A DNA stretch of 64,000 nucleotides, from NCBI RefSeq assembly GCF_002305875.1, contig NZ_CP022098.1:5704001-5768000 (forward strand). The letters run 5' to 3'. A model generated the notes under the pieces. It did no database searches. It saw only the letters and a program-made list of their open reading frames with translations, and was not told where the DNA came from. How positions within the stretch are numbered: position 1 is the first letter of the stretch; every line of letters begins with the position of its first letter. This document shows, one piece after another, positions 11,664-54,153 of this stretch. The position numbers were made by a program, and so were the translations under genes. This stretch comes from Cystobacter fuscus. GTDB taxonomy: Bacteria; Myxococcota; Myxococcia; Myxococcales; Myxococcaceae.

Positions 11664-11784
11664 GCCGAGGTCCGGGTCACTTCGAACATCCACCTCTCAC
11701 CAGCCAGCGGAGGGTCTTTTGGACAACGCCCCAGAAAGCCGTGAACGCATGAGCCTGATGCGAGTGTGGGTGTGGACGTGCGTG
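11607..11784 (+). repeat. 178-bp direct repeat, copy 2
   Basis: Gap-free match to 4907-5084, offset exactly 6700 bases, four mismatches. It spans the end of the immunity gene, an 85-base spacer and the first 12 codons of the next lipoprotein. Confidence 0.9.
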
Positions 11785-11940
11785 CTGGGGCTGCTGGGCT
11801 CTGGCTGCACCGCGGCCCGCGAGGCCGCCACCCCGGTCCCCGTGGCGGCTCCTGCGCCTTTCTCCCAAGACCTGACGTGCGTCATGAGCAAGTTGTTCCA
11901 GTATAAACAGGAAATCATGTATAGCTGGCCGACACTGTGA
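11749..11940 (+). pseudogene. Truncated lipoprotein (5' remnant of a second toxin-type lipoprotein)
   Basis: ATG 11749 opens MSLMRVWVWTCV, then LGLLGSGC, a good lipobox, then TAAREAATPVPVAAPAP. After about residue 42 the frame leaves lipoprotein-like sequence and ends at 11940, 20 bases before the polysaccharide lyase start. The 5.0-kb relic shows that the same start can lead in frame into toxin-type sequence, so this is probably the beginning of another toxin gene, cut when the lyase segment arrived. It could still be expressed as a 63-residue lipopeptide. Confidence 0.65.
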
Positions 11941-11960
11941 CGCACCTCAGAGGAATGCAC

Positions 11961-13817
11961 ATGGCACGTCGGCAACTTGTGATTGGCTCGAGCTTGCTCC
12001 TGGGTCTGACTCCTTTCCCGGGATTCGCGGCGGATGAGCGGTTCTCCATTCCGCCCACCTCCGTCACCGCGAGCACGGATGATGGCAACGTCCCCGCCAA
12101 TACCGTCGACGGAGACCTGACCACCCGCTGGTCCGCGGAGGGAGATGGACAGTGGCTCCAACTCGACCTGGGTAGCCCCAAGAAGGTGGCCTTCGTGAAG
12201 ATCGCCTTCCTCAACGGCGCCTCGCGGACCTCCACCTTCGACATCCAGACCTCCCCGGACGGCACCACGTTTTCCACCGTGCGCTCGAAAGCGACGAGCA
12301 GCCTGACGAGCGGCCTCCAGACGTTCGACTTCCCGGATGTCGGGTCCGCGCGGTACGTGAGGCTCGTGGGGTATGGCAATTCCGCCAATGCCTGGAACAG
12401 CTACCTGGAGGTGGAGGTTCACGGGAGCGCCGCGGAAGCGCCCTCGGGCAACATCGTGAACGTCTCCACCGCCGCTCAACTCACCACGGCCCTCGCCAGC
12501 GCGACCGCGGGCACGACCATCGTCCTGGCGGACGGCACCTATACGAACAGCGGCGCCTTCGTCCTCAAGGGCAAGAACGCCACCTCCTCCAGTCCCATCA
12601 CCCTCAAGGCCGCGAACCGGGGCAAGGCCATCATCTCCGGCGGCGCCTCCCTCCAGGTGACCAGCTCCTCCCACGTGGTCATCTCGGGCCTGAAGTTCAC
12701 CAACACCGGCAACAGCGCCCTCGTGCTCGATGGCTCCAACAACATCCGGGTCACCCGGAACACCTTCGCGCTGATCGAGGACGGCACCCAGATCAAATGG
12801 CTGCTCATCAAGGGAGCCGGGAGCCACCACAACCGGATCGACCACAACGACTTCGGCGGAAAGAGCAACATCGATCCGGTCATCGCCCTGGATGGCAATT
12901 ACTCCTCGCAGATGACCCAGTATGACGTGATTGAGTACAACTACTTCCACGACGTCGGGCCGCGCCTCGCCAACGGGTTGGAGACCATCCGCCTCGGCCT
13001 GTCCGCCCTGTCCCTGCTCGATGCCCACGCCACCGTGCAGTACAACCTGTTCGAGAACTGCGACGGGGACCCGGAGTTCATCTCCATCAAGAGCGGCCAC
13101 AACACGATCCGCTACAACACGATCATCACGTCGCAGGGACAGCTCACCGCGCGGCACGGAAACAACAACAGCATCTACGGCAACTTCATCCTGGGTGATG
13201 GCAGCAAGTCCGGCGTGGGCGGCATCCGGCTCTACGGGACCGACCACAAGGTCTACAACAACTACCTGGCGAAGCTGACCGATGACGCGCTCCTCATCGA
13301 CGGGGGCGATTTCGACGGAGGGCCGACCTCCAGCACCTATACCGCGAGCGATCTGAGCAAACACTGGAGGGTCTACCGGGCCGAGGTCGTGAACAACACG
13401 GTCGTCGACAGCACGGCGGGCCTCCTCATCGGGAAGAAATATACGTACGCACCGGTGGACTCGAAGGTCGCCAACAACCTCATCCGGAACACGACGGGCA
13501 CCCTCTACAACGAGCTCAAGACGAGCAACACCCTGTTCCAGGGCAACATCGGGTACGGCTCGGCCCTGAGCAACAAGTCGCGGACGTCCAGTGAGATCCG
13601 CAACGTGAATCCGTCCCTGACCGCGGTCAACGGTCTGCAGAAGCTGAGTTCCACGAGTCAGGCCATCAACGCGGCGACGGGCGCGTACACCTACGTCGCG
13701 GAAGACATGGATGGGCAGTTGCGCGCCGCCAACGACGTCGGCGCGGATGAGTACTCCACCGACCCCATCGACCACGCGCCGTTGTCGTCGGCCGATGTCG
13801 GCCCGAATGCCCCTTGA
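11961..13817 (+). CDS. Secreted PL6-type polysaccharide lyase (alginate-lyase-like) with N-terminal discoidin domain
   Basis: 618 residues from ATG 11961, with AGAGGA 8 bases upstream. Signal peptide MARRQLVIGSSLLLGL…GFAA. Residues about 25-155 form an F5/8-type-C (CBM32-like) sugar-binding domain (NTVDGDLTTRWSAEGDGQW, ARYVRLVGYG). Residues 160-600 form a right-handed beta-helix with many Asn-ladder turns. The PL6 catalytic pair is visible: Lys377 in FISIKSGHN and Arg398 in LTARHGNNN, 21 residues apart, the same spacing I recall between Lys250 and Arg271 of chondroitinase B. Expected to cleave uronic-acid polymers such as alginate by beta-elimination; substrate not proven. It is flanked by a truncated lipoprotein and a 25-base stray match to the 4.3-kb gene, which suggests insertion into older DNA. 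Confidence 0.88.
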   Translation: MARRQLVIGSSLLLGLTPFPGFAADERFSIPPTSVTASTDDGNVPANTVDGDLTTRWSAEGDGQWLQLDLGSPKKVAFVKIAFLNGASRTSTFDIQTSPDGTTFSTVRSKATSSLTSGLQTFDFPDVGSARYVRLVGYGNSANAWNSYLEVEVHGSAAEAPSGNIVNVSTAAQLTTALASATAGTTIVLADGTYTNSGAFVLKGKNATSSSPITLKAANRGKAIISGGASLQVTSSSHVVISGLKFTNTGNSALVLDGSNNIRVTRNTFALIEDGTQIKWLLIKGAGSHHNRIDHNDFGGKSNIDPVIALDGNYSSQMTQYDVIEYNYFHDVGPRLANGLETIRLGLSALSLLDAHATVQYNLFENCDGDPEFISIKSGHNTIRYNTIITSQGQLTARHGNNNSIYGNFILGDGSKSGVGGIRLYGTDHKVYNNYLAKLTDDALLIDGGDFDGGPTSSTYTASDLSKHWRVYRAEVVNNTVVDSTAGLLIGKKYTYAPVDSKVANNLIRNTTGTLYNELKTSNTLFQGNIGYGSALSNKSRTSSEIRNVNPSLTAVNGLQKLSSTSQAINAATGAYTYVAEDMDGQLRAANDVGADEYSTDPIDHAPLSSADVGPNAP

Positions 13818-13888
13818 GAGAGCATCGTCACCGTGCCGGCCCCACGTCCGGTTCCTCCCGGTGGGGGCGGACTTCCCTCTTCTCAAGA

Positions 13889-13907
13889 ATTGGCAAAAGT
13901 CTTGCAG
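13889..13907 (+). promoter_or_regulatory. Sigma-54 (-24/-12) promoter
   Basis: ATTGGCA-AAAGTC-TTGCA at 13889-13906: TGGCA (13891-13895) and TTGC (13902-13905) have the exact spacing of the consensus TGGCACG-N4-TTGC; only the CG of the -24 element differs. Transcription would start near 13917, about 100 bases before the repeat-protein ATG. No upstream activator site could be recognised. Confidence 0.6.
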
Positions 13908-14018
13908 AAACGATCCGCAACTTCGCGAGGCCGGACGCGATAATGGGTAGTTCCCCGCGATCAGGACAGCGTGGCTCCTGGTTGTTGTCGAAATCGCTCC
14001 CGCCTCCAGGGTTTCTCC

Positions 14019-15359
14019 ATGTCCGGTTCCATTCGTTCCCAGCTCCCTGGCCTCTTCAAGTCCGCCCAGCAGTCCCTGGCGCAAGTGTCCAACCCCACCC
14101 CGAAGCTCATGGGGGGGCTGACTTCTGGCAACGCCAGCGTGAAGCAGGCTCTCTCGCAGCTCGGGCAGATGGATGGCTTCGCGAGCGTGGCCAGCGGCAA
14201 ACAGAGCCTCGCGCTGGCCGCCAACAACGCCCTGGGCTTCGCCCACAACGCGGCCGGTCTGGCCCAGGGCCGTACGGGTATTGGCCAGAAGCTGATGAGC
14301 GGGGTGCTTCAGTCCGGGACCGTTCCGGGTGGCATCCTGCATGCCCTCGCGATGGCGCGGACGCCGCACCAGGCCACCACGAAGCCAACGGGCCACTCGG
14401 GGTTGACGGGACCCTTGGCCCAGGGCATCGCGGGCGCGGTCAGCTCGCTGGCCCATGGCGCCGCGAGTGGACACGGGCCCCTGGCCCAGGCCATCGCGAG
14501 CGCGTTGAGTTCGCTGGCCCATGGCGCCACGAGCGGGCCGAATGGGTTGCACCATGGGGCCGCGAGCGCGGTGGGCTCGCTGGCCCATGGCGTCGCGAGT
14601 GGACACGGAGGCCTGGCCCAGGGCCTCGCGGGCGCGGTGAGCTCGCTGGCCCACGGCGCCACGGGCGGACCGAATGGGCTGATGCATGGGGCCGCGGGCG
14701 CGGTGGGCTCGCTGGCCCATGGCGCCGCGAGTGGACACGGGCCCATGACCCAGGCCATCGCGAGTGCGGTGAGTTCGCTGGCCCACGGCGCCACGGGCGG
14801 ACCGAATGGGCTGATGCATGGGGCCGCGGGCGCGGTGGGCTCGCTGGCCCATGGCGCCGCGAGTGGACACGGGGGCCTGGCCCAGGGCCTCGCGGGCGCG
14901 GTGAGCTCGCTGGCCCATGGCGCCACGGGCGGGCCGAATGGGCTGATGTATGGGACCGCGAGCGCGGTGGGCTCGCTGGCCCATGGCGCCGCGAGTGGAC
15001 ACGGGCCCCTGACCCAGGCCATCGCGAGCGCGGTGAGCTCGCTGGCCCATGGCGCCACGGGCGGGCCGCATGGGCTGATGCACGGGGCCGCGAGCGCGGT
15101 GGGCTCGCTGGCCTACGGCGCCGCGAGTGGACACGGGGGCCTGGCCCAGGGCCTCGCGAGTGCGGTGAGCTCGCTGGCCCACGGCGCCACGGGTGGACCG
15201 ACTGGGCTGATGCACGGGGCCGCGAGCGCGGTGGGCTCGATGGCTCATGGCGCCGCGAGTGGACACGGGCCCATGGCCCAGGGCTTCGCGGGCGCGGCGG
15301 GTGCGCTGGCTCAGGGCCTGGCGGGCGCCATGGCCAAGAACTCCGCGAGTGGGCATTGA
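14019..15359 (+). CDS. Protein built of nested 22-residue Ala/Gly/His repeats
   Basis: 446 residues from ATG 14019 (MSGSIRSQLPGLFKSAQQ); upstream in-frame ATG 13971 is less likely. Residues 1-140 are non-repetitive, polar and helical (SVKQALSQLGQMDGFASVA). From residue 143 there are 13 units of exactly 22 residues (14445-15302) and an 18-residue cap ending in AKNSASGH. Odd units read SLAHGAASGHGPLAQAIASA or the GGLAQGLAG variant; even units read SLAHGATGGPNGLMHGAA. No signal peptide or membrane segment. Nothing I know matches. Long open frames also exist in two other phases because the unit is a multiple of three; I choose this one because it gives a regular repeat, a sensible N-terminus and a sigma-54 promoter upstream. 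Confidence 0.75.
   Translation: MSGSIRSQLPGLFKSAQQSLAQVSNPTPKLMGGLTSGNASVKQALSQLGQMDGFASVASGKQSLALAANNALGFAHNAAGLAQGRTGIGQKLMSGVLQSGTVPGGILHALAMARTPHQATTKPTGHSGLTGPLAQGIAGAVSSLAHGAASGHGPLAQAIASALSSLAHGATSGPNGLHHGAASAVGSLAHGVASGHGGLAQGLAGAVSSLAHGATGGPNGLMHGAAGAVGSLAHGAASGHGPMTQAIASAVSSLAHGATGGPNGLMHGAAGAVGSLAHGAASGHGGLAQGLAGAVSSLAHGATGGPNGLMYGTASAVGSLAHGAASGHGPLTQAIASAVSSLAHGATGGPHGLMHGAASAVGSLAYGAASGHGGLAQGLASAVSSLAHGATGGPTGLMHGAASAVGSMAHGAASGHGPMAQGFAGAAGALAQGLAGAMAKNSASGH
14445..15302 (+). repeat. Thirteen 66-bp tandem repeats with 132- and 264-bp higher-order periods
   Basis: Thirteen in-frame units of 66 bases. Units alternate between an SGHG type and a GPNG type (132-bp period). The SGHG units themselves alternate between PLAQAIAS-like and GLAQGLAG-like forms (264-bp period), which points to stepwise doubling. 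Confidence 0.9.
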
Positions 15360-15516
15360 AGCACTGCCCGTGCTCCTGGCTCGAATGGGCCGAGGGGCGG
15401 GCTGGGCCTGTCCGGCCACTTCACGCCAGTCCTCACCCTGACGGGCGCGGACTCGCCTGAGCCTCCTGCGGATCTCCGGCGGCTCGGGTAGGGTCCTTGT
15501 CTGGAAGGATGACTTC

Positions 15517-16593
15517 ATGGACTCGAACCAGAAATCCTCGCCCCCCGCCAAGAAGCGAGCCGGTATTCCGATGTACACCTCGCCGGCCCGCAGGGCCGCG
15601 CAAGGCGGTGAGGTCCAGATGCCCCCAGTGATCGCGCCGTCACTGGAAGGCCTCTCCGTCATCGTCCCCGCCCCGGAGCCCATCACCGCGCGGAGGGTCC
15701 AGGAACGCTTCCAGGAGCTGGCGCGCGCCCATGCCTCCGAGCGCATGCGTCCGCGCACGGAGGGCCTCGCCTGGGGTGACGAGGTGCTGGTCGATATCGC
15801 GGGTTATTCGAATGGGCGCCTCATCCCCTTCAGCGTGCGCACCGACGTCTGGCTCCCGCTGGCGCCCGACCCCCTCCTGCCGGGCCTGTACGAGCAGTGG
15901 GTGGGTCACCTGCCGGGAGAGAGCGTGCTCGTGGACATCGTCCTGGGCGAGAACTACCCCCTCGAGGCGCTACGGGGTCAGCCCGCGCGCTTCGCCCTCC
16001 TCATCCAGGCCGCGCGCGAGGTGAAGTACCCCGACCCGACGAATCCGGAGTTCCTCGAGGCCCTTGGCCGCGGGGCGACACTGGATGAAGTGATGCGCGG
16101 TGTGGCGAAGGAGCTGCAACAGGAGGCCGCGCGAGCACGGTTCCTCGAGGGCCAGCAGCGGGTGCTCGAGGAGGTGGCCGCACGCACACAGGTGGACATC
16201 CCCGAGGAGCTGGTCAACGAGGAGATCCGCCTGCGCTGGGGCGCGAGCGAGGGTCGCTCCGTGACCAAGCTCAAGTTCAGCAACAAGCATCAGGAGGAGT
16301 CGCTCCAGACGTGGCTGGCGGACGAGAGGACCCGGGCCGAGGCCAGGCAGCGGTTGCGCATCAGCCTGGCTCTGGGCGCCATCTGCAAGCGTGACGGGCT
16401 CATCCTCACCCCGGCCAAGGTGCTAGAGGTCATCCAGGCCGAGTCCACGGCCGCCGGTGTGCCGCTGGAACAGGCCACCGCCGTCTTTGCTTCCGAGCCA
16501 CAACAACACGCCCGCATCACTCAAGCCGCGTGGCATCTGTTGGCGGTGGACCACGTCATGAGCAAGGCCCAGGTGCACGGCGCGGGCACCTGA
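15517..16593 (+). CDS. Trigger-factor-like protein lacking the ribosome-binding domain
   Basis: 358 residues. After a basic, Pro-rich N-terminus (about 50 residues) it reads VQERFQELARAHASER, WGDEVLVDIAGYSNGRLIPF, PDPLLPGLYEQWVGHLPGE, ENYPLEALRGQPARF: the FKBP-like peptidyl-prolyl isomerase core of trigger factor. It continues as the helical chaperone arm (FLEALGRGATLDEVMRGVAKEL, then VDIPEELVNEEIRLRWG). The N-terminal ribosome-docking domain with its GFRKGK-type motif is absent, so it is unlikely to be the housekeeping trigger factor. It starts 158 bases after the repeat-protein gene on the same strand; a chaperone role for that protein is inference. No signal peptide. Confidence 0.75.
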   Translation: MDSNQKSSPPAKKRAGIPMYTSPARRAAQGGEVQMPPVIAPSLEGLSVIVPAPEPITARRVQERFQELARAHASERMRPRTEGLAWGDEVLVDIAGYSNGRLIPFSVRTDVWLPLAPDPLLPGLYEQWVGHLPGESVLVDIVLGENYPLEALRGQPARFALLIQAAREVKYPDPTNPEFLEALGRGATLDEVMRGVAKELQQEAARARFLEGQQRVLEEVAARTQVDIPEELVNEEIRLRWGASEGRSVTKLKFSNKHQEESLQTWLADERTRAEARQRLRISLALGAICKRDGLILTPAKVLEVIQAESTAAGVPLEQATAVFASEPQQHARITQAAWHLLAVDHVMSKAQVHGAGT

Positions 16594-51948: not shown

Positions 51949-54153
51949 ATGGAACTGCCAATCGTCGCCTCCGGAATCGCGGGAGGACTCTTCTTCCTCT
52001 TCTGCTCCGCGTTCGTTGTCTCCAGGTTCTACCGGCAGGTGGACCAGGGCCGCGCGCTCATCATCAACCCCTTCAAGGGCGAGCCCGTCGTCACCTTCAC
52101 TGGTTCCATCGTGTGGCCCATCATCAACCGGGCCGAGGTGATGGACATCTCCTTGAAGACGGTGGAGATCGACCGCCGCGGCAAGGAGGGCCTCATCTGC
52201 AAGGACAACATCCGCGCGGACATCAAGGTCACCTTCTTCGTCCGGGTGAACAAGACGCGCGAGGACGTGCTCAAGGTGGCCCAGTCCATCGGCTGCGCGC
52301 GCGCCAGTGACGAGCAGACGCTCGAGCACCTCTTCGAGGCCAAGTTCTCCGAGGCCCTCAAGACGGTGGGCAAGAGCTTCGACTTCGAGGAGCTCTACAC
52401 GCACCGCGACGCCATCAAGGATCAGGTCGTCCAGGTCATCGGCAAGGATCTGAGCGGCTACATGCTCGAGGACTGCGCCATCGACTTCCTCGAGCAGACG
52501 CCCGTGGACATGCTCGACAAGCACAACATCCTCGACGCCCAGGGCATCCGGAAGATCACCGAGCTCACCAGCGTCCAGAACGTCCACACCAACGAGTTCC
52601 GCCAGAGCGAGCGCATGGCCATCACCAAGCGCAACGTGGAGGCCGACGAGGCCATCTTCGCCCTGGAGCGCCAGCGCACCGAGGCCGCCGCCAAGCAGAA
52701 GCGCGAGATCGAGTCCATCCAGGCGCGCGAGACGGCCGAGGCCGAGCGCGTGAAGAGCGAGGAGTACGCCAAGCAGCAGCTCGCGCGCATCAAGGCCGAG
52801 GAAGAAGTCCAGATCAACGATCAGAACAAGCAGCGCCAGGTGGAAGTGGCCCAGAAGAACCGCGAGCGCGTGGTGGGCGTGGAGTCCGAGCGCGTGGAGA
52901 AGGACCGCGCCCTGGAGGCCATCAACCGCGAGCGCGAGGTGGAGCTGTCGCGCATCGGCAAGGAGAAGCAGCTCGAGGCGGAGAAGAAAGCCATCGCCGA
53001 CGTGGTGCGCGCGCGCATCGCCGTGGAGAAGACGGTGGCCGAGGAGGAGGAGCGCATCAAGGACCTGCGCGTGAAGGCCGAGGCCTCGCGCAAGAAGGAC
53101 GCGCTGCTCATCACCGCCGAGGCCCAGGCCCAGGAGAAGCTCGTCAAGGACATCAAGGCCGCCGAGGCCAGCAACGAGGTGTCCAAGTTCACCGCCAAGG
53201 AGAAGCTCACCCTGGCCGAGGCCGAGCTGCAGGCCTCCGATTTGACGGCCAAGGCGAAGATCCGTCTGTCCGAGGGCATCCAGGCCGAGGAGGCCGCGCT
53301 GGGGCTCGCCGCCGCGCGCGTGAAGGAGGCGGATGCGCTCGCCCAGGAGAAGCAGGGTCTGGCCGCGGTGCGCGTGAAGGAAGCGGAGACCGCCGTCCTC
53401 GAGAAGCAGGGCCTGGTGCAGGCCTCCGTCATCGAGAAGCAGGGTCTGGCCGAGGCCGCCATCGCCCGCGAGAAGCTCGTCGCCGAGGCGGCGGGTGAGA
53501 AGGAGAAGGGGCTGGCGCGCGCGAGCATCGGCGAGGCCGAGGCCCACGCCATCCAGAAGCGCGGCGAGGCCGAGGCCATCGCCACCCGCGAGAAGCTGCT
53601 CGCCGAGGCGAAGGCCATCGAGGAGAAGCTGCTCGCCGAGGCGCGCGGCCTCGCCGAGAAGGCCGAGTCCATGAAGGCGCTCCAGGGCGCCACGCGCGAG
53701 CACGAGGAGTTCCGCCTGCGCCTGCAGAAGGAGCGCGACGTGGAGCTCGCCGCCATCAACGTGCGCAAGGACATCGCCGAGCACCAGGCCAAGGTGCTCG
53801 CCGAGACGATGGGCCATGCGAAGATCAACATCGTCGGAGGCGACGGTCAGTTCTTCGAGCGCTTCATCAAGGCCATCTCCGTGGGCCAGTCCGTGGACGG
53901 CGCGCTCGACCAGAGCGAGACGCTCAAGCAGGCCTTCGCCGGCTACCTCAATGGCCAGAAGGACCTGTCCGCCGACTTGAAGGACATCCTCTCCAAGCCG
54001 GGCCTCACCAGCGACGCGCAGAACCTGGCCATGGCCGCGCTGCTGCACCGCATGGCGCCCGCGCCCACCACCGCCGCCGCCTCCAACCTCAAGTCGCTCG
54101 TCGAGTCCGAGCCCGCCGTCCGGGCCTCCGCTCCCGAGCGGACCCAGGGCTGA
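51949..54153 (+). CDS. Flotillin-like (YqiK/SPFH) membrane protein
   Basis: 734 residues. N-terminal membrane segment (IVASGIAGGLFFLFCSAFVV), SPFH/band-7 domain (about 30-210; VDQGRALIINPFKGEPVVTF, LICKDNIRADIKVTFFVRV, GYMLEDCAIDFLEQTPVDML), then a long Ala/Glu/Lys-rich coiled coil (about 215-620) in which heptads with EKQGLA and KLLAEA recur, and a 110-residue C-terminal region (GGDGQFFERFIKAISVGQSV). The central coiled coil is longer than in many flotillins. It probably oligomerises into membrane scaffolds and, with the YqiJ-like protein, anchors the downstream AAA ATPase (inference). Confidence 0.92.
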   Translation: MELPIVASGIAGGLFFLFCSAFVVSRFYRQVDQGRALIINPFKGEPVVTFTGSIVWPIINRAEVMDISLKTVEIDRRGKEGLICKDNIRADIKVTFFVRVNKTREDVLKVAQSIGCARASDEQTLEHLFEAKFSEALKTVGKSFDFEELYTHRDAIKDQVVQVIGKDLSGYMLEDCAIDFLEQTPVDMLDKHNILDAQGIRKITELTSVQNVHTNEFRQSERMAITKRNVEADEAIFALERQRTEAAAKQKREIESIQARETAEAERVKSEEYAKQQLARIKAEEEVQINDQNKQRQVEVAQKNRERVVGVESERVEKDRALEAINREREVELSRIGKEKQLEAEKKAIADVVRARIAVEKTVAEEEERIKDLRVKAEASRKKDALLITAEAQAQEKLVKDIKAAEASNEVSKFTAKEKLTLAEAELQASDLTAKAKIRLSEGIQAEEAALGLAAARVKEADALAQEKQGLAAVRVKEAETAVLEKQGLVQASVIEKQGLAEAAIAREKLVAEAAGEKEKGLARASIGEAEAHAIQKRGEAEAIATREKLLAEAKAIEEKLLAEARGLAEKAESMKALQGATREHEEFRLRLQKERDVELAAINVRKDIAEHQAKVLAETMGHAKINIVGGDGQFFERFIKAISVGQSVDGALDQSETLKQAFAGYLNGQKDLSADLKDILSKPGLTSDAQNLAMAALLHRMAPAPTTAAASNLKSLVESEPAVRASAPERTQG

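Follow-up and report, generated by a model that had tools for sequence, protein, structure and literature searches.

Nested 11-, 22-, 44- and 88-residue repeats in a protein encoded beside a truncated trigger-factor-like chaperone of Cystobacter fuscus

The window analysed here is a stretch of 64,000 nucleotides from the genome of Cystobacter fuscus (contig NZ_CP022098.1, positions 5,704,001 to 5,768,000), and coordinates are counted from its first letter. It contains a cassette in which the gene for an internally repeated protein is followed, after 158 bp, by the gene for a trigger-factor-like chaperone (Table 1). In five sister cassettes for which it was measured, the corresponding gap is only 30-32 bp long. 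The first gene is preceded by a putative promoter box and by a leader with an inverted repeat. The gene ahead of the cassette (11937-13817, plus strand) encodes a polysaccharide lyase resembling chondroitinase B (Pfam 2.2e-50), which also carries an F5/8 type C domain (5.8e-21). Elsewhere in the window, a 734-aa ORF (51949-54153, plus strand), which looks flotillin-like, carries 33-bp, 11-residue Glu/Ala/Lys-rich repeats near 53301-53655.

Table 1. Features of the repeat protein-chaperone cassette, in window coordinates.
Feature	Position	Strand	Basis or remark
Sigma-54-like promoter box (AATTGGCAAAAGTCTTGCA)	13888..13906	+	Pattern match
Possible 5' leader hairpin or inverted repeat (ATCAGGA ... 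TCCTGGT)	13960..13982	+	7 pairs kept in 7/7 aligned cassettes
Repeat protein gene	14019..15359	+	446 aa; no Cys, 1 acidic and 10 Lys/Arg residues
N-terminal motif ANNA.G.A.N..GLAQG ... GTVPGG...ALAMA	14196..14357	+	Alignment; shared with paralogue L043/L009
Capping unit, type Ap	14409..14474	+	Unit typing
88-aa super-unit 1 (Ap-B-Ag-B)	14475..14738	+	Unit typing
88-aa super-unit 2 (Ap-B-Ag-B)	14739..15002	+	Unit typing
88-aa super-unit 3 (Ap-B-Ag-B)	15003..15266	+	Unit typing; the relative has two super-units in all
Degenerate last unit	15267..15332	+	7-12/22 identities with other units
Trigger-factor-like chaperone gene, no ribosome-binding domain	15517..16593	+	358 aa; Pfam Trigger_C 2.5e-13

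The array, including its capping units, extends over 14409-15332 and comprises 14 units of 22 aa without insertions or deletions, 13 of them regular and one degenerate. One Ap unit is followed by three series of Ap, B, Ag and B and then by an Ap unit as closing cap, and the stretch 14445-15302 measures 858 bp, or 13 x 66 bp, in a single register. None of its 286 residues is charged; 26 are His, 10 are Thr and 24% are Gly. Self-comparison of the array protein gave identities of 0.36, 0.57, 0.36, 0.80 and 0.87 at lags of 11, 22, 33, 44 and 88 aa, respectively, and in 1000 shuffles of the array the identity never exceeded 0.26 at any lag from 5 to 99. The value at lag 11 compares with a mean of 0.12 and a maximum of 0.195 for lags up to 49 that are not divisible by 11. 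In the DNA, identity at lag 33 was 0.565, against a maximum of 0.418 for the other multiples of three up to 139. Since the lag-11 signal stands above the lags not divisible by 11, the 22-mer is a doubled 11-mer, and the nesting is 11/22/44/88 aa with a base unit of 11 residues.

A preliminary description of this DNA had reported thirteen exact 22-residue units of two alternating types, one of which alternates again, and three nested periods of 22, 44 and 88 residues. Both alternations are perfect from unit 1 onward (units numbered from 0), and the three periods were all recovered, but the 11-aa level beneath them had been missed. That description also did not mention the neighbouring chaperone gene, the promoter box or the wider family. 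The units are exact in length and not in sequence, as only units 4/6 and 3/7 are identical in protein. The successive doublings that had been read from this pattern are supported and extend down to the 11-residue level, and the array of a close relative is shorter by exactly one super-unit of 88 aa (264 bp). This single copy difference cannot prove the order of the doublings, nor whether a super-unit was gained or lost.

Three of the six frames, two forward and one reverse, are free of stops across 14406-15297, as had been described, and this count supports the earlier explanation of the extra open frames as a by-product of the 66-bp unit. The call of the coding frame leans mainly on the N-terminal 130 aa, which are shared in the same frame with the in-genome paralogue L043/L009 (BLASTP 9e-12). 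This match, and not the substitution patterns alone, rules out the other frames. Between the window and its relative, omega over the N-terminal 130 aa was 0.34 in the coding frame and 0.38 in one reverse frame; over the array it was 0.61 in the coding frame and 0.61 and 0.52 in two other frames, all from few substitutions. The frame is retained open in the relative, and substitutions in the array do not single out a frame. A reverse ORF of 1353 aa (11697-15758, minus strand), which spans the lyase gene, the array and the start of the chaperone gene, is probably a by-product of GC-rich DNA. A long reverse frame (828 aa) is likewise open across the array in the relative's stretch L005.

The hydrophobicity of the array has a period that peaks at 98 degrees, or 3 x 360/11, the value for an 11-residue three-turn helix. 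AlphaFold2, run on the single sequence, predicted for every one of the 14 units a helix 17-26 residues long, with a mean pLDDT of 50.6 and no residue at or above 70, and this model may be used as a hint only. The regular fold suggested previously agrees with the period and with the predicted helix per 22-mer, and the low pLDDT speaks against taking it as established. A self-assembling fibre, likewise suggested previously, is a possible form of the protein. A three-turn helical period of 11 residues is a feature of LEA group 3 proteins, synuclein and apolipoprotein. The array shares this period and is unlike these proteins in being uncharged and Gly/His-rich, with a helix that is probably broken every 22 residues; besides the lack of charge at all 286 positions, no Pfam LEA match was obtained at E <= 1. 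The type I antifreeze protein of flounder consists of Ala-rich 11-residue repeats, with Thr every 11 residues on an Ala helix. Ala-rich 11-residue repeats are common to both proteins, whereas the array contains much Gly and no Thr every 11 residues, its 10 Thr falling in at most six of the 26 11-mers at any position shown.

The chaperone encoded downstream contains a Trigger_C domain (50.9 bits against a cut-off of 22.7), its sole Pfam trigger-factor domain. Its alignment to TIGR00115 begins at position 102 and scores below the cut-off set there for true trigger factor, and that to trigger factor chain 1w26 begins at residue 113; by these three signs the N-terminal ribosome-binding domain is absent. 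A phmmer match (4.7e-7) to trigger factor chain 1l1p (106 aa), which we take to be the PPIase domain of trigger factor, supports a PPIase region, and the Pfam scan of the chaperone gave no FKBP match. Three N-terminally defective trigger factor homologues of Myxococcus xanthus, MXAN_6153, MXAN_1178 and MXAN_1713, likewise keep the PPIase and C-terminal regions of trigger factor and lack its ribosome-binding domain (PMC11559001). According to the same article, these chaperones do not bind ribosomes and can refold GAPDH, and their knockouts showed heat and stress effects, lowered sporulation in two cases and no significant difference in predation (PMC11559001). The substrates recovered in pull-downs are described there as mostly unique and varied (PMC11559001), which is counted against a dedicated-client reading. 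The terms 'operon', 'upstream gene' and 'hypothetical protein' do not occur in the main text of that article, while the linked gene family upstream is the focus here.

Such chaperones occur in several copies in many myxobacterial genomes. Homologues at E <= 1e-20 were found in at least 71 of 145 genomes of the order, with at least 144 matches, at most 14 candidates having been scored per genome. Sixty-five chaperone genes, chosen by hand, were compared from 60 stretches, the window and the relative's locus L010. For 59 of them, the end of an ORF lies no more than 600 bp upstream and encodes a C-terminal domain of about 75 aa, built around the two motifs RF.PG.N and ATNIP.VSQ.GA; the proteins encoded in this place are putative clients and are called clients hereafter. 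To train the domain profile, 39 of the 42 upstream ORFs read first were used, and among loci fetched after training 20 of 21 chaperone genes had a domain-bearing upstream ORF. The six genes without a domain partner are those of the window, the orthologue, L064, L066, L082 and the second gene of L099, and for the last three no partner gene could be named. The locus L064, from another genus, holds a second chaperone gene and an upstream ORF without the client domain.

The pairing is also seen from the side of the domain. A chaperone gene lies downstream at 57 of 59 judgeable domain loci, the exceptions being L158 and L163; these were drawn from 61 named domain loci, two of which were too short to judge. 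The named loci include Myxococcus xanthus, Corallococcus, Archangium, Hyalangium, Pyxidicoccus and Citreicoccus. With at most 29 candidates scored per genome, the domain was detected in at least 73 of 195 genomes of the phylum: 71 in the same family, one in the same order and one, as a weak match (5.5e-5), elsewhere. Distances between client domains correlate weakly with those between chaperones (Mantel r 0.285), against a maximum of 0.133 in 2000 permutations. A client model built from 42 sequences was all-helical at low confidence (mean pLDDT 50.8), and a Foldseek search with it gave no match in the PDB at E <= 0.001. A record titled Comamonas sp. (L147) contains a typical myxobacterial cassette and is possibly a mislabelled genome. 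At G099:C4:405145, G103:C1:6766329 and four similar places, short open frames (156-190 aa) match the client domain more weakly (E 3e-9 to 2e-11).

The genome to which the window belongs (12.35 Mb, single contig) contains three such chaperone genes and two client domains, both in the other cassettes. The paralogous clients L043 (G000:C1:1.31 Mb) and L044 (8.43 Mb) share the promoter box, the leader and the downstream chaperone with the window, and L043 also shares the N-terminal motif. Both keep the C-terminal domain and are devoid of the 22-mer array; L044 has Pro/Thr repeats instead. No frame of the window matched the client domain with filters off, and a search of the array and of the 158-bp gap revealed no vestige of it. 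One frame of L010 scored -2.3 bits, and shuffles of the window frame reach 5.2. In the chaperone tree, the window and its orthologue (100/100) are sister to six genus members (100/99), all of which have domain-bearing clients, and the clade of eight is supported at 100/100. The simplest history would be that the window lineage lost the client domain. Descent of the 22-mers from the middle region of the paralogues was set aside, the scores being suggestive only, with one of five lying above the best of 200 shuffles.

Internal repeats, accepted when their score lay over 2 matches in 33 above the highest of 60 shuffles, were found in 20 of 61 clients including the window and its orthologue (18 of the 59 others), and the remaining 41 had none. 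The units differ among clients: Pro/Thr in L044 and L102, KPAEGA in L045 and YADP in L065. In eight clients of other genera the best lag was 11, with lysine-rich 11-mers close to the C-terminus. Judged from this sample of sequences, repeats are a habit of the client family.

The promoter pattern AATTGGCAAANNCCTTGCA, with at most one mismatch, occurs at three places in 12.35 Mb, each ahead of a cassette, and the reversed control gave none. The pattern was derived from the cassette alignment, so the three cassette matches follow by construction; the absence elsewhere does not. The box, TGGCAAA-N3-CTTGCA, presumably has the spacing of sigma-54 promoters. Apart from the spacer it is invariant in seven aligned cassettes, and it is present in all eight cassettes of the window's clade with 0-2 mismatches in 15 fixed bases (2 in L102). 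L048 and L049 lack it (5 or more mismatches), leaving it in 8 of the 10 same-genus cassettes read. Changes in the leader hairpin are all one-sided (G-U) and none is two-sided. Covariation analysis of the 5' leader found two-sided changes in one of 32 predicted pairs, a pair that is itself broken in three of seven rows, and gave no support for an RNA structure; the inverted repeat could just as well serve as a DNA operator.

An orthologue of 358 aa was found in G074, one of three other genomes searched in the genus. The N-terminal 130 aa gave a strong match in 2 of 145 genomes of the order and the whole protein a match in 2 of 96 genomes of the family. Three further genomes gave weak N-terminal matches (L006-L008, E 0.0005-0.005), whose ORFs were inspected. 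A related-locus search with the window protein, from which the window's own genome was possibly excluded, gave no match. The orthologue array has 10 units, namely a cap, two series of Ap, B, Ag and B, and a cap. Since the upstream gene and the chaperone gene are 98.7% and 98.6% identical in DNA between the two species, the length of the array has changed over a short time. The dS values were 0.072 for the repeat gene, 0.020 for the upstream lyase, 0.026 for the chaperone and 0.044 for the next gene. Relative to L010, the repeat gene, its non-repeated N-terminal part included, has diverged at synonymous sites roughly three times as far as the two neighbours on its strand. The chaperone partners are 98% identical, with an omega of 0.39 from few substitutions. 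The same two species also differ in the L044/L102 clients (584 and 402 aa), and L043 and L047 are of equal length.

The reading we favour, with about as much confidence as doubt, is that the array protein is the client of a dedicated chaperone and functions as an assembling or surface-binding helical repeat protein. Transcription would start from the sigma-54-type promoter. The protein would form a short helix in every 22 aa, about 14 in all, uncharged and rich in Ala, Gly, Ser and His. Each helix would consist of two 11-residue three-turn segments, and GHG and GPN turns would alternate between successive helices. The cognate chaperone might act as a dedicated holdase, a role suggested by the M. 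xanthus chaperone data together with the gene order; it would keep the aggregation-prone chain after synthesis and hold it until the helices pack together or onto the surface of a membrane, lipid or polymer. The product could be a structural, assembling component for starvation or development. Repeat number would tune the length of the protein, changing through unequal exchange among near-identical super-units, and in the window lineage the array would have taken the place of the C-terminal domain, which almost every other client read has kept. If the lost domain was the docking site for the chaperone, the array protein may have ceased to be a client.

Other functions can be considered for the cassette. 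It might encode a secreted or contact-delivered effector with its dedicated chaperone, the C-terminal hydrophobic helices of the usual clients inserting in membranes or signalling export and the variable repeats serving as passenger or linker. The adjoining chaperone gene, the strong variation of clients among species and paralogues and their conserved C-terminal hydrophobic stretches (best 19-residue Kyte-Doolittle window 1.58 in M. xanthus protein L113) are in line with such a role. It is nevertheless unlikely. The window protein is devoid of the C-terminal domain and reaches a hydropathy of at most 1.06 over 19 residues; neither Pfam nor NCBIfam gave a match that passed the cut-off for the window protein, L009 or ten scanned clients; and no predation difference is reported for the chaperone knockouts (PMC11559001).

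It also seems improbable that the array is a decaying copy, in which the client domain was lost and the repeats then expanded neutrally in a functionless gene. The loss of the domain, the raised dS of the gene relative to its two same-strand neighbours, the array omega of 0.61 and the strong match in just two genomes of the order would be expected of decay; on the other hand, both species retain the open frame, the perfect alternation and the C-terminal end, the promoter box is kept, the N-terminal omega is 0.34 and the chaperone partner is conserved. A stress or spore protectant, in which Ala-rich 11-residue helices bind ice, water or lipid as in type I antifreeze, LEA or apolipoprotein-like proteins, is quite doubtful. 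The 11-residue period, the lysine/glutamate-bearing 11-mers in clients of other genera and the stress and sporulation phenotypes described for chaperone knockouts point towards such a function, and the array, with no charged residue, 10 Thr in 286 positions and no Pfam LEA family, points away from it. Its 24% Gly is also unlike type I antifreeze proteins.

The preferred reading of the array protein as an assembling client forms part of a broader proposal, on which belief and reservation are evenly balanced: myxobacteria would carry an undescribed, multiplying client-chaperone system, in which a repeat-prone, fast-changing client with a conserved C-terminal domain of about 75 aa is paired with its own off-ribosome trigger factor. 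The window would represent a radical version of it, with the domain gone, an 11/22/44/88 helical array in its place and a length differing by a whole 88-aa unit between close species. Truncated trigger factors are already known; the linked client family and the array would be the new part. Neither was found in the titles and opening parts of abstracts of the literature on these chaperones, their upstream genes, the pair, lipid bodies and 11-residue or myxobacterial repeats. If the proposal is true, the extra ribosome-free trigger factors of many myxobacteria would be kept because each has a client encoded next door. The array would provide a stepwise natural record of how a helical repeat protein is built, from 11 to 22, 44 and 88 residues and then to two or three copies. 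The pairing would also point to concrete candidate partners in M. xanthus, where chaperone knockouts affect heat tolerance, stress and sporulation.
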